Virus record (IMG/VR): IMGVR_UViG_3300035181_001045 | Coordinates: 62,001-126,000 of that record | Origin: a virus | Strand: one strand, 5' to 3' | Length of the DNA stretch: 64,000 nucleotides | Shown: positions 432 through 48,988 of the stretch, in pieces | Position numbering within the stretch: the stretch's first letter is position 1 | Layout of the letters: each line of letters opens with the position of its first letter | Program-made: the position numbers and the translations under genes | The notes under the pieces: generated by a model | The model's database searches: none | What the model was told of the DNA's origin: nothing | The model's input: the letters and a program-made list of their open reading frames with translations, nothing else

Positions 432-466
432 TTGATCGCTCGGGTCTCCAATTTGTAGGACCGCCA
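432..466 (+). promoter_or_regulatory. Consensus phage promoter, leaderless (TTGATC-N16-TGTAGG-N6-ATG)
   Basis: TTGATC at 432-437 and TGTAGG at 454-459, spacer 16. The ATG at 466 begins exactly 6 nt after the -10-like box, so the predicted transcription start is the start codon itself. One of the full-consensus sites. Confidence 0.75.
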
Positions 467-579
467 TGTTCACCCTTCCCATTGTTCTGACCGTCCTTTT
501 GGTGTCGGCCCTCTTTGGGGCGGACATTGCTCTCAAGGCGATTCCGACGTCCGAGAAGTCTGACGACGTTCTCGGTTGA
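466..579 (+). CDS. Small hydrophobic protein, 37 aa
   Basis: Not recognised. MFTLPIVLTVLLVSALFGAD then a short polar tail. Residues 2-20 form one hydrophobic segment, so it is a membrane microprotein or secreted peptide. The start is set by the consensus promoter 6 nt upstream; no Shine-Dalgarno sequence is present, consistent with leaderless translation. Its TGA stop lies inside a further TTGATC. Confidence 0.5.
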   Translation: MFTLPIVLTVLLVSALFGADIALKAIPTSEKSDDVLG

Positions 580-609
580 TCTGGAAATCACGAAAACCAA
601 GGACCCCCC

Positions 610-1110
610 ATGAAGTTCGAGATCCGCAATCTGAAGGTTTCCGCGTTCGCCTCGAAAGAGACCACTTGCTTCGAGGGGGCCATCTACCTCGACGGCAAGA
701 AGCTCGGCACGGCCCACAACGACGGGCACGGCGGGGCCACGCACATCGAGCCCCGGGAGTGCCGTGAGCAGCTCAATGCCCACGCGGCGACCCTCCCCAA
801 GCTCGTCTCCAACATCAAGGACGGGTCAGAACCCGGGGGCTTCTTCACCTTCCAGCCGACGGGTGAGACTTTCGTGGGCTCCCTCGTGACGGAGAGCATC
901 GTGGAGCGGGACTTCAAGAAGGCCCCGAGCAAGCGCATCCTCTTCACCAAGGAAGGCAAGGCGGGCATCTTCCAGACCAAGACCTACAAGGCCGAGGAGC
1001 TGAAAGATATGCTCGCCTACCCCACCCTCGCGCAGACCCTCAAGGCGCTGAAGATCCTCAATCTTCTCCCGCTGGCTGAAGCTCTGGCCATCTACAAGGT
1101 CAACATCTGA
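610..1110 (+). CDS. Conserved phage-type hypothetical protein, 166 aa
   Basis: Begins MKFEIRNLKVSAFASKETTCFE and has a GTAHNDGHGGATHIEP segment. The alternating beta pattern in the first 60 residues followed by a helical C-terminus resembles small unknown phage/plasmid proteins. No catalytic motif recognised. Start chosen at the ATG after aaggacccccc; the next gene has its own promoter. Confidence 0.7.
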   Translation: MKFEIRNLKVSAFASKETTCFEGAIYLDGKKLGTAHNDGHGGATHIEPRECREQLNAHAATLPKLVSNIKDGSEPGGFFTFQPTGETFVGSLVTESIVERDFKKAPSKRILFTKEGKAGIFQTKTYKAEELKDMLAYPTLAQTLKALKILNLLPLAEALAIYKVNI

Positions 1111-1118
1111 GAATCAGG

Positions 1119-1153
1119 TTGATCGGGACCGGGCGACATCTGTAGGACCCTCA
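1119..1153 (+). promoter_or_regulatory. Consensus phage promoter, leaderless
   Basis: TTGATC 1119-1124, TGTAGG 1141-1146, spacer 16, then 6 nt to the ATG at 1153. Confidence 0.75.
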
Positions 1154-46464: not shown

Positions 46465-48183
46465 ATGGCAACAAAGTACGGGACCGAGATTCGGAAGAGC
46501 ATGCTTGCTGGGGTCAACCAGCTTGCGGACGTCGTTGCGGTGACGTTGGGCCCGAAGGGGCGAAACGTCTGTATCCAGAAGGCGTTTGGCAATCCCCTCG
46601 TCACCAAGGATGGGGTGAGCGTCGCGAAGGAAGTCGAGCTATCGGACCCCTGGGAGAACATGGGCGTTCGGCTCATGCGCGAAGCCTCCTCGAAGACCAG
46701 TGATGATGCCGGAGACGGCACGACCACCTCGACGGTTCTGGGCCGCTACCTCTACGCCAACGGTGTGAAGCTCGTCGAGGCGGGGTTCGCTCCGGTCCCG
46801 CTCAAGCGCGGGATGGACAAGGCGTTCAACCTCCTGGAGGAGCAGATCCTCGGTCTCACGCTTCCGGTCAAGGAGCAGAAGGACATCGAGTCGGTCGCGA
46901 CCATCTCGGCCAACGGCGACGCGGAGATCGGCAAGATCATCTCCGATGCTGTGGCTCGGGTTGGCAAGGACGGCGTCGTCAACATCGAGGAAGGCCGCAA
47001 CGACAAGACCGTGGTCGAAGTGACCGACGGGATGAAGCTCGACCGTGGCTGGGCCAGTCCGAACTTCTGCACGGACGAGCTGAAGCAAGAGAGCATCCTG
47101 CACAACGCCTACGTGCTCGTGACGGACAGGGAGTTCTCGGCGATTCGCCCGCTGGTCCCGCTCATGGAGCAGATCATGACGGAGAAGCGCCCGCTCTTCA
47201 TCATCGCTCCGGACTTCGGGGGTGAAGCCCTCCCCACGTTCGTCCAGAACCTCCGGAACAACATCTTCATGTCGTGTCTCGTCAAGGCGCCGGCCTTCGG
47301 GGACAACCAGAAGCGGATCCTCGAAGACATCGCCGTGCTCACGGGAGCCACGATGATCTCGAAGGACCAGGGGATGACCTTCGATGGCATCACCATGGAG
47401 CACCTCGGGACCGCTGGTCGCATCCGGGTGACGCTGAAGGACACCATCATCACGGACGGCGGGGGAGATCAGAAGCTCGTCGATGGCCGGGTCAACCAGA
47501 TCAAGGCGGAGATCGAACGCTCGACGTCCGAGTACGACGCGGACAAGTACCGGGAGCGGCTCTCGAAGCTTCTCGGTGGCGTCTGCGTCATCAAGGTCGG
47601 AGCTTCCTCCGAGACCGCGATGAAGGAGCTGAAGGCCCGGATGGAGGACGCCCTCTACGCCACCAAGGCCAGCATCGCGGAAGGTGTGGTCCCCGGTGGC
47701 GGGGTGACGCTCATCCGAGCTGCTCTTCGCGTCCAGGTCCTCGTGGAAGAGACCCAAGCACTCGGGGCTCAGATCGATGGGGATCGGGAACCGACGCATG
47801 TGATCGAGGCGGTCCCGCAAGAGGAAGATGACCAGCTCCTCTTGATCCCCGGGGCTCTTCTCCCTGTGGGCGATGAGGAGTGGGCTGGCTTCAAGCTGGT
47901 GCTCCAGGCCTGCGACGAGCCCTTCCGGCAGATCATCCGCAACGCTGGTGGATCGGCGGACGTCTTCCTCAACAAGGTCAAGGAAGAGCTGCCCGAGGAG
48001 TCCTGGGGTGTGGATGCCCGGGACATGACCTGCAAGGACATGATCGACGCCGGCATCATCGACCCCACCAAGGTGGTCCGGGCTTCCCTCGCGAATGCCG
48101 TCTCGATCGCCGGCATCATGCTCACCACGGAATGTGCAACACGAAAGCCCGAGGTCGACAAGTCGGCCGACGTCGCTTTCTGA
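46465..48183 (+). CDS. groEL: Phage GroEL-like chaperonin, 572 aa
   Basis: [20 protein letters not shown] ... [23 protein letters not shown] site [12 protein letters not shown] (catalytic Asp), [20 protein letters not shown] with the ATPase Asp in MEDALYA. Between residues about 425 and 470 the equatorial region carries a 30-40 residue insertion ([20 protein letters not shown]). The C-terminus lacks the GGM repeats of bacterial GroEL. Phage GroELs can fold capsid or other phage proteins and may work without GroES. Confidence 0.95.
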
Positions 48184-48225
48184 CCGTCTTCCGTCCCATA
48201 TCTCCAAATCGGTGTATTTGGGGGT

Positions 48226-48696
48226 ATGGGATTTGGACACGCTCTCCGTTCCTTCTTCCTCCCCACGCACCGGACCAACGATCTTCGCGTCGGTCCGGTA
48301 GGCTTTCTCTCCAGCAAAGAGAGAGCAGTCATCTGCCAACACCCCCAAATCCGCCTGCTTGAGGCTGCCGTACCTGGCGGGCCGGTGACGATCCGCACCC
48401 ACAGCAAGTACCCCCAAGGCGCCTGGCTCGACCTCGAAGCAAGGGTTGAGGACGGCCTGTTGCACCTCGTCGAGCCCGAGACGAATCAAGCAGCGGTCAA
48501 CCGCCGGAACATCAATGGCTTGACCTGGGCATTTCCTTCCGGCACCATGGTGGTCCTTCGAGAATTTGGGGTTGAGATCGACCCCTTGGGGCTCCTTCAC
48601 CTCGGACCCATGCCGTTCACCCCCGAGACTCTTCTCGAAGGGGTGCGGAAGCTCACGACGGCCTGTCTTCGGGTGGCCTCGCTTCCCCTCGGTTGA
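48226..48696 (+). CDS. Hypothetical protein, 156 aa
   Basis: MGFGHALRSFFLPTHRTNDL ... AAVPGGPVTIRTHSKYPQGA ... VNRRNINGLTWAFPSGTMVV. Beta-rich. The TGA is inside the next promoter's TTGATC. ggtgtattt lies upstream. Unknown. Confidence 0.6.
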   Translation: MGFGHALRSFFLPTHRTNDLRVGPVGFLSSKERAVICQHPQIRLLEAAVPGGPVTIRTHSKYPQGAWLDLEARVEDGLLHLVEPETNQAAVNRRNINGLTWAFPSGTMVVLREFGVEIDPLGLLHLGPMPFTPETLLEGVRKLTTACLRVASLPLG

Positions 48697-48727
48697 TCCC
48701 GTTCATGGTGCTCATGTAGGAGAGGCA
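48693..48727 (+). promoter_or_regulatory. Consensus phage promoter, leaderless
   Basis: TTGATC 48693-48698, TGTAGG 48715-48720, spacer 16, 6 nt to ATG 48727. Confidence 0.75.
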
Positions 48728-48957
48728 TGAACCATCTCCAGCCGGAGGTGGGCGAAGCACGCTCATCCTACCGGCATAGAACCCCTGATCTCGCCGCCTC
48801 TTTCGAGCAAGAGGACCTGGACGCGTTCGCCGAGAGTGCCGAGCGGGCTGCCGATACATACTTGGCGTTTGAGGACCTTCACGAGCTGTACGCAGCGGCC
48901 GATGCTGTTTCGGCTGCCGCCCGGATGAAGCGGAGAGGGACGAAAAGAAGGGGTTGA
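48727..48957 (+). CDS. Helical hypothetical protein, 76 aa
   Basis: MNHLQPEVGEARSSYRHRTP ... an acidic amphipathic helix (EDLDAFAESAERAADTYLAF) and a basic tail MKRRGTKRRG. Leaderless start; stop TGA lies in the following TTGATC. Confidence 0.6.
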   Translation: MNHLQPEVGEARSSYRHRTPDLAASFEQEDLDAFAESAERAADTYLAFEDLHELYAAADAVSAAARMKRRGTKRRG

Positions 48958-48988
48958 TCAGGGACTTCTTCGCTTTGTAGGAGAGACA
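48954..48988 (+). promoter_or_regulatory. Consensus phage promoter, leaderless
   Basis: TTGATC 48954-48959, TGTAGG 48976-48981, spacer 16, 6 nt to ATG 48988. Confidence 0.75.

Follow-up and report, generated by a model that had tools for sequence, protein, structure and literature searches.

The window analysed here, 64,000 nucleotides (nt) long (bases 62,001-126,000 of the 234,659-base virus record IMGVR_UViG_3300035181_001045, here G000), carries a strict bipartite module, TTGATC-N16-TGTAGR (-35 hexamer, spacer, -10 hexamer; class 1), beyond which a start codon most often begins exactly where transcription would be expected to start. A second class, [TC]GGTGTA-N10-ATG, lacks a -35 element. 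The reading that seems probable on balance is that these are leaderless phage promoters with a lineage-specific -35 word, and that sig1, a divergent sigma factor candidate encoded in the window, is the likeliest reader. Its parts differ in strength: the class-1 boxes are almost certainly real promoters and their mRNAs are very probably leaderless, while their recognition by sig1 or another phage sigma factor is an even bet.

In the proposed mechanism, a class-1 promoter would consist of the -35 word GGTTGATC, a 16-bp spacer and a -10 word TGTAGR at -12 to -7. Transcription would start on, or about 0-4 nt from, the A of the start codon, and the resulting leaderless mRNAs would be translated by ribosomes binding the 5'-terminal AUG. 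Class 2 ([TC]GGTG-TANNNN-N6-ATG, no -35) would serve other, on average longer genes, several of them in DNA metabolism, also at a leaderless distance. From one lineage to the other the -35 word differs (GGTTGATC, GATGGATC), with spacer, -10 word and distance unchanged, a pattern suggestive of a dedicated specificity factor. The likeliest would be the sig1 candidate, which lies behind its own class-1 boxes in both lineages, as in autoregulation.

Several related records were compared. G000 is contained in the phage contig IMGVR_UViG_3300035180_001778 (G001, 350,469 bases), with 99.98-100% match in the stretches compared. G003 (3300020122_000238, 275,300 bases) is mostly 84-95% identical to G000 in aligned stretches, with one stretch at 75%, and G002 (3300035181_001402) shares sites with G001. 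The order and spacing of sites shared by G003 and G001 suggest a circular or circularly permuted genome of about 360 kb, of which about 11 kb is missing from G001. More distant are a megaphage contig of 528,957 bases (IMGVR_UViG_3300035182_002586, G013), G012 (406,734 bases) and LR745208.1 (485,034 bases). Unless whole records are specified, counts refer to examined stretches, which are subsets of the sequence: 158 kb of G000, G001 in the part beyond G000, 102 kb of G003 and 123 kb of G013. The control for exact counts is the reversed pattern, and +n denotes the gap in nt between the -10 hexamer and the start codon.

Exact class-1 matches number 44 in G000, 65 in G001, 25 in G003 and 22 in G002 over the whole records, against none for the control in each. 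Within the window, up to two mismatches being allowed, there are 31 matches versus 5.8 (standard deviation 2.3, largest 15) in 100 dinucleotide shuffles. The spacer is 16 in 87 of 91 GTTGATC-N12..21-TGTAGR pairs from G000, G001 and G003. Among 60 TTGATC-N16-TGTA sites in the 158 kb of G000, the preceding base is G in 59 and the preceding two are GG in 45; the -10 words are TGTAGG (27), TGTAGA (17), TGTAGT (5) and others (11). This is the geometry of sigma-70-type bipartite promoters, two hexamers with a spacer within 16-18 bp, and the boxes lie upstream of genes in the direction of transcription above chance (44 versus 0 in controls, with the start-codon peak described below). An earlier note on this DNA, which had called the module genome-wide, is borne out, but the distribution is uneven: 39 of the 44 exact G000 sites fall within the first 111 kb of the record. 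Six further viral contigs (G004-G009) with one exact match each are taken as chance. The class-1 sites of the window are as follows (open reading frame, ORF; amino acids, aa):

380-407, minus strand: class-1 TTGATC-N16-TGTAGA, ATG at +8 and +11, frame of 294 or 293 aa
432-459, plus strand: class-1 boxes, ATG 466 (N6), ORF of 37 aa
1119-1146, plus strand: class-1 boxes, ATG 1153 (N6), ORF of 201 aa
2222-2249, plus strand: class-1 boxes, A but no ATG at +6; next comes the class-2 box at 2280 (ATG 2296)
3099-3126, plus strand: class-1 boxes, ATG 3133 (N6), ORF of 60 aa
3673-3700, plus strand: class-1 boxes, ATG 3707 (N6), ORF of 36 aa
4524-4551, plus strand: class-1 boxes, ATG 4558 (N6), ORF of 90 aa
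7375-7402, plus strand: class-1 boxes before sig1, ATG 7409 (N6)
19694-19721, minus strand: class-1 boxes, ATG at +7, ORF of 72 aa
20388-20415, minus strand: class-1 boxes, ATG at +9, ORF of 206 aa
22156-22183, plus strand: class-1 boxes, ATG 22190 (N6), ORF of 61 aa
23436-23463, plus strand: class-1-like boxes with TGTACA, no ATG within 15 nt
34399-34426, plus strand: class-1-like boxes with TGTAAG, overlapping a class-2 GGTGTA, no ATG within 15 nt, tRNA-Ala about 49 nt on
42266-42293, plus strand: class-1 boxes, A but no ATG at +6
43098-43125, plus strand: class-1 boxes, A but no ATG at +6
43531-43558, plus strand: class-1 boxes, A but no ATG at +6
44220-44247, plus strand: class-1 boxes, ATG immediately after the hexamer (+0), none at +6
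48693-48720, plus strand: class-1 boxes, ATG 48727 (N6), ORF of 76 aa
48954-48981, plus strand: class-1 boxes, ATG 48988 (N6), ORF of 108 aa

The nine full matches given in the earlier note (432, 1119, 3099, 3673, 4524, 7375, 22156, 48693 and 48954) are all exact, with ATG after N6. In its second list, of boxes said to precede RNA genes or to have slightly longer spacing, those at 2222, 42266, 43098, 43531, 44220 and, on the minus strand, 19721 and 20415 are exact, but 23436 (TGTACA) and 34399 (TGTAAG) have one mismatch, and 37078 is not TTGATC but TTGAGG-N16-TGTAAG-N6-ATG and bears TTGGTGTA, that is, class 2. The exact minus-strand site at 407-380 was in neither list. Directly before the -35 box of both other minus-strand promoters stands a shared upstream stretch, GCCACTACTTTCCTACGATCGAC (about 19722-19745 and 20416-20439).

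At 119 GTTGATC-N16-TGTA sites in G000, G001 and G003, the first ATG is at +6 in 67 (about 1.4% expected), +9 in 17, +7 in 9 and +8 in 3, or 29 from +7 to +9; this peak and the enrichment over shuffles are what the motif search proposed in the earlier note had been expected to give. Start codons at +6 to +9 comprise 97 ATG, 3 GTG and 1 TTG; motif-less genes in simple gene calls start with ATG in 265 of 316, by a caller that favours ATG. Where ATG is missing at +6 (52 sites), 26 have A in that position (p=2e-6), as do 8 of the 17 sites without any ATG in the next 15 nt (p=0.013). Some of the G000 and G003 sites are orthologs of each other; with G003 left out, 18 of 39 non-ATG sites in G000 and G001 have the A (p=3e-4). 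The preference for A even where no ATG follows argues that this position is a transcription start independently of any start codon. Orthologs could be aligned within the 102 kb of G003 for 31 of the 86 G000 and G001 sites; 21 of them have the strict motif, 16 at the same position. (A pairwise conservation table, 14 of 33 sites, was set aside as biased, both sides having been picked by motif.) Fixed spacing, fixed ATG distance, the A at the predicted start without ATG, and geometry kept in diverged relatives are seen in the sequence itself, and from them transcription at these sites is inferred; as geometry only, the fixed -10 distance is of the leaderless type, placing +1 on the start codon. 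Of the earlier note's mechanism, the strict -35/-10 module with a start codon at the expected transcription start stands, and leaderless mRNA would be its natural reading; the idea of one promoter type dictating all does not, a second class without a -35 box being present.

That second class emerged from called genes without class 1, where GGTGTA at -16 is the top position-specific 6-mer (30 of 313 upstream regions). The examined stretches of G000, G001 and G003 contain 269 GGTGTA, followed by ATG at a gap of 10 in 63, 9 in 22, 11 in 17 and 12 in 10; at any other gap between 4 and 21 there are 0-7 ATGs, except gap 4 (13), and the reversed control reaches at most 11 at one gap. Over whole records, class 2 versus control is 30/0 in G000, 51/2 in G001 and 44/1 in G003. 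T or C precedes GGTGTA in 100 of 108 aligned sites, and no -35 box appears in the aligned sites of the three records. At gap 10 the TANNNN hexamer lies at -12 to -7, matching the placement of TGTAGR in class 1, so that both classes would predict +1 at the A of ATG. Their products differ: 63 examined for class 1 have a median of 91 aa and match 18 PHROG families, versus 145 aa and 55 families for 64 from class 2, which include (among 25 of the 55 listed) DNA ligase, helicase, DNA methyltransferases, dCTP deaminase and dNMP kinase. Class 1 looks early or accessory and class 2 partly concerned with DNA metabolism, a timing that we infer. The window has 15 class-2 sites with gaps 9-12, among them:

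2280-2298, plus strand: class-2 GGTGTA-N10-ATG, ATG 2296
10778-10796, plus strand: class-2 GGTGTA-N10-ATG, ORF from 10794, 273 aa
55032-55050, plus strand: class-2 GGTGTA-N10-ATG before a probable NAD-dependent DNA ligase, ORF from 55048 (ligase families match one member of the class-2 set; its assignment to this ORF is by eye)
59417-59435, plus strand: class-2 GGTGTA-N10-ATG

An indication of a dedicated reader comes from G013, whose large helicase-like protein has 60% identity in the best segment (46.7% for the LR745208.1 helicase). G013 keeps the geometry with another -35 word: its 123 kb contain 23 TGGATC-N16-TGTA sites, all preceded by GA, with ATG at +6 in 15 and +7 in 4. The spacer is 16 in 17 of 20 TGTAGR pairs and 15 in the remaining 3, and C occupies spacer position 12 in all 23 sites and position 14 in 21. 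The words of the two lineages do not cross: counts of GTTGATC and GATGGATC with N16-TGTA are 86/0 in G000 and G001, 33/0 in G003, 1/23 in G013, 1/0 in G012 and 0/0 in LR745208. Class 2 (gaps 9-12) occurs 40 times in G013 (1 in a shifted and 0 in a reversed control) and 46 times in G012 (6 and 3). Class 1 was not found in the examined stretches of G012 (5 one-mismatch sites versus 0 reversed, none with both boxes intact), in G011 (2 versus 0, neither with both intact) or in LR745208.1 (0 exact; 7 one-mismatch versus 3 reversed); in the last, class 2 was not seen either, and de novo k-mer searches found no promoter code of its own. The presence of class 2 in both G013 and G012, with class 1 not found in the examined stretches of G012, makes class 2 the wider trait and class 1 lineage-specific.

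The gene behind the class-1 boxes at 7375, and its downstream neighbour, are:

7409-8317, plus strand: sig1, divergent extracytoplasmic function (ECF)-like sigma candidate, 302 aa, sub-threshold matches to TIGR02937 and Sigma70_r2, relative in G013
8343-9143, plus strand: downstream neighbour, 266 aa, sigma-like by eye only, no family match (nor for the longer frame from 8286)

Residues 181-300 of sig1 match positions 50-160 of NCBIfam TIGR02937 (E=0.0013). Its G013 relative (BLASTP against that one sequence: E=1.9e-41, 29% over 325 aa) has a weak Sigma70_r2 match of its own (E=0.024, aa 85-121) and lies behind GATGGATC-N16-TGTACT, so that each copy, in G000 and G013, stands behind the class-1 boxes of its own lineage. 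When the viral collection was scanned with a profile, whose seeding by two peptide patterns may miss relatives, sig1 relatives were found only in the two class-1 lineages. At E<=1, a search of G000-G003 gave no canonical sigma region 2 (PF04542) and no multi-subunit RNA polymerase by PF00562, other subunits and single-subunit polymerases not having been searched.

Several points weigh against this assignment or the wider reading. The TIGR02937 score of sig1 is 18.4 bits, below the curated cut-off of 42.9, and its Pfam Sigma70_r2 match in an hmmscan of sig1 alone (E=0.035, aa 22-54) is below cut-off too. The family profile matches no sigma factor in the PDB; the single-sequence fold model, too poor to carry a conclusion, has a confidence (pLDDT) of 40, with a best Z of 3.5 to unrelated chains. 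G003, a class-1 user, gave no sig1; its contig, judging from site order, seems to be without that stretch, and a weak match (E=0.038) proved to be an unrelated frame. The sig1 gene of G013 is not leaderless, its start codon coming 20 nt beyond TGTACT. G012 and LR745208, which are without class 1, have further sigma-like matches of other kinds, so that carrying an additional sigma does not set class-1 phages apart. The other TIGR02937 matches are at G013 479458 (a region-4-like frame, above cut-off), G012 395876, and LR745208 154150 and 74276. The strict motif is missing at 10 of the 31 G003 orthologs, some through one-base spacer changes or single substitutions, others lost or misaligned. A promoter of early-looking genes should also work at a time when no phage proteins have yet been made, unless the phage particle brings the factor with it, and two class-1 sites in an integrated element of a bacterial genome, L068, fit a host factor as well.

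A better-supported sigma-related protein is encoded at G000:137346-138056: it matches Pfam Sigma70_r4 at E=2.5e-13 (49.8 bits, above the cut-off of 24.1), and in its model (pLDDT 66) residues 61-127 align with SigR region 4 at Z 8.7 (2.1 A over 65), in a search whose tool warns that Z below about 13 may reflect a common arrangement for helical folds. Sigma chains make up most of the best 50 rows, the top row being a UPF0122 protein (Z 9.0 at 8.7 A). Chain 9m98_F, beside sigma chains in that search, ranks 17 for sig1 at Z 2.1, not above noise, and a relationship between the sig1 family and the region-4 protein was rejected (hhalign probability 0.4%). Relatives of the region-4 protein occur in G011 and G012 (64-66%) and LR745208 (40%), where class 1 was not found, so that it is not class-1-specific. 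It is identical over 236 residues in G000, G001 and G003 (L095 and L096, 10001-10708, for G001 and G003), though the aligned DNA of G001 and G003 differs by about 5-16% in most compared stretches, which suggests very strong constraint or recent exchange.

Could the promoters be leaderless but read by a host sigma factor instead of a phage protein? We think this somewhat unlikely, and the evidence is divided. The class-1 geometry is sigma-70-like, and leaderless genes are reported in 8 of 33 delta-proteobacterial genomes (PMC3160421). L068, a 3.7-kb contig (1-3739) of a delta-proteobacterial metagenome-assembled genome with a phage integrase (27.9 bits, cut-off 27.1), has two divergent exact class-1 sites, both N6-ATG, a box pair expected 4e-5 times per contig under a first-order model. 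Four of its ORFs have no tblastn match at E<=0.1 in the phage loci examined, tblastx finds only short segments (E 0.001 or worse among the matches listed), and upstream regions of its genome have TANNNT at gaps 6-9 in 14 of 166. The same 166 regions, however, include none with TGTANN at gap 6; across the 10.7 Mb of that genome there are just 4 exact sites, half of them in L068; and the -35 word differs by phage lineage with the rest constant. Nor is a second site unique to L068: L076 (Paenibacillus) has a second GTTGATC-N16-TGTA site (0.0017 expected), without ATG at +6. In 84,980 bacterial species genomes, GGTTGATC-N16-TGTAGG-N6-ATG occurs in 11 contigs of different taxa, L068 and L076 among them, with one match each, so that no species scanned shows many copies of that exact form; the form is narrow, and a looser host version may escape. 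L068 may reflect either a host factor for the code, a code borrowed from phage, or a rare accident; it is a possible satellite or host clue, with a tail that we take to be MYXO-CTERM-like and that no model confirmed. A bolder joint reading, in which each huge-phage lineage has a private sig1-family sigma and its own -35 word, an orthogonal code wired to leaderless translation that the satellite-like L068 copied so that its divergent regulatory genes come on at infection, is distinctly unlikely, and is weakened by the second, ATG-less site of L076. A regular-expression hunt for ECF sigmas in L069-L094 (G010 stretches and ten single-match genome loci) found none; an excess in G010 at two mismatches (500+556 versus 209+204 reversed) was not used, coding bias being suspected.

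The boxes might instead be phage activator or repressor sites overlapping ordinary promoters, with transcripts starting elsewhere. Box conservation is stricter than is usual for housekeeping promoters, and phages are known to place a MotA-like activator at -30; but spacer, -10 distance and start-codon distance are all of sigma type, and A stands at the predicted +1 where there is no ATG, so this is very unlikely. Hardly credible is that TGTAGG(AG) is a ribosome-binding site on a leadered mRNA rather than a -10 box, even though the earlier note's statement that no Shine-Dalgarno is present does not literally hold: AGGA, GGAG or GAGG lies within 12 nt of ATG at 37 of 67 +6 sites. This is largely because TGTAGGA itself contains such a 4-mer: it is found at 31 of 39 TGTAGG sites but only 5 of 15 TGTAGA sites, and within the N6 alone at 5 of 67. 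Between -18 and -4, 30 of 63 called genes with the motif have one, versus 102 of 316 others. A ribosome-binding site would also leave unexplained the 17 sites without ATG within 15 nt and the -35 box at exactly 16 bp.

The suggestion that some of the remaining boxes precede RNA genes fared poorly: either class lies within 150 nt upstream of 7 of 40 tRNA and transfer-messenger RNA (tmRNA) genes versus 4.8 at random, and for want of enrichment class 1 was rejected as an RNA-gene promoter. Those genes, 39 tRNA and one tmRNA (ARAGORN; tag ANDNALVPMQMAA), occupy 22779-45856, with two tRNA-like matches by Rfam only (31156-31227 and 42646-42716). At 42266-44247, four class-1 boxes without ATG at +6 fall within 2 kb; the nearest RNA matches downstream, tRNA-like 42646 and tRNA-Trp 43853, are hundreds of nt away, and unannotated small RNAs behind these boxes are possible. 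The window also encodes a GroEL of 572 aa (46465-48183; PHROG E=1.1e-140).

If the favored reading, leaderless phage promoters with a lineage-specific -35 word, is right, a phage promoter code apparently setting both transcription and translation start can be seen from sequence alone, with a natural experiment in which one code word changed between lineages. Dozens of short phage genes, which annotation might overlook, are given proposed exact start codons. Should sig1 read the code, sigma-promoter pairs that are orthogonal to each other and can be tested would become available, along with a clean system for how giant phages get leaderless mRNAs translated. Titles and abstract openings in the literature on leaderless mRNA in jumbo and huge phages, phage sigma factors and phage promoters gave no description of this two-class code.

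Partial likenesses to known systems are several. ECF sigma promoters are autoregulated, with -35/-10 words of the GGAAC/GTC type, unlike those of class 1; sig1 may resemble ECF sigmas in that its weak matches to region 2 and the ECF model come in the right order, behind a promoter that it may read, but differs in the roughly 125 residues between the two parts and in its sub-threshold scores. T4 late promoters have a -10-type word and no -35, as does class 2, which is unlike them in sequence, GC-rich context and near-fixed start-codon distance.

Closer are the TANNNT-6/7-ATG promoters of Deinococcus-Thermus, where leaderless promoters are established (PMC12340547), and of other bacteria (PMC3160421): there too a -10 element some 12 nt ahead of the start codon serves as promoter and takes the place of the ribosome site. 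The TANNNT core itself is absent from class 1, which has TG rather than TA at -12/-11 and adds the strict -35; class 2, as TANNNN, keeps TA at -12, shows no preference for T at -7 and adds GGTG. Among phages, the AR9 paper describes phage transcripts as often leaderless, AR9 leaders themselves being 26-491 nt (PMC5312081). The Thermus phage phiYS40 has a genome of about 150 kb. Most of its middle and late mRNAs are reported to be leaderless (PMC3594737), so that the earlier note's claim that leaderless mRNA was undescribed in large phages was too strong. The likeness would lie in a large phage with most middle and late mRNAs without a leader; the difference is that two promoter designs are found here, one of them with a very strict, lineage-specific -35 word.

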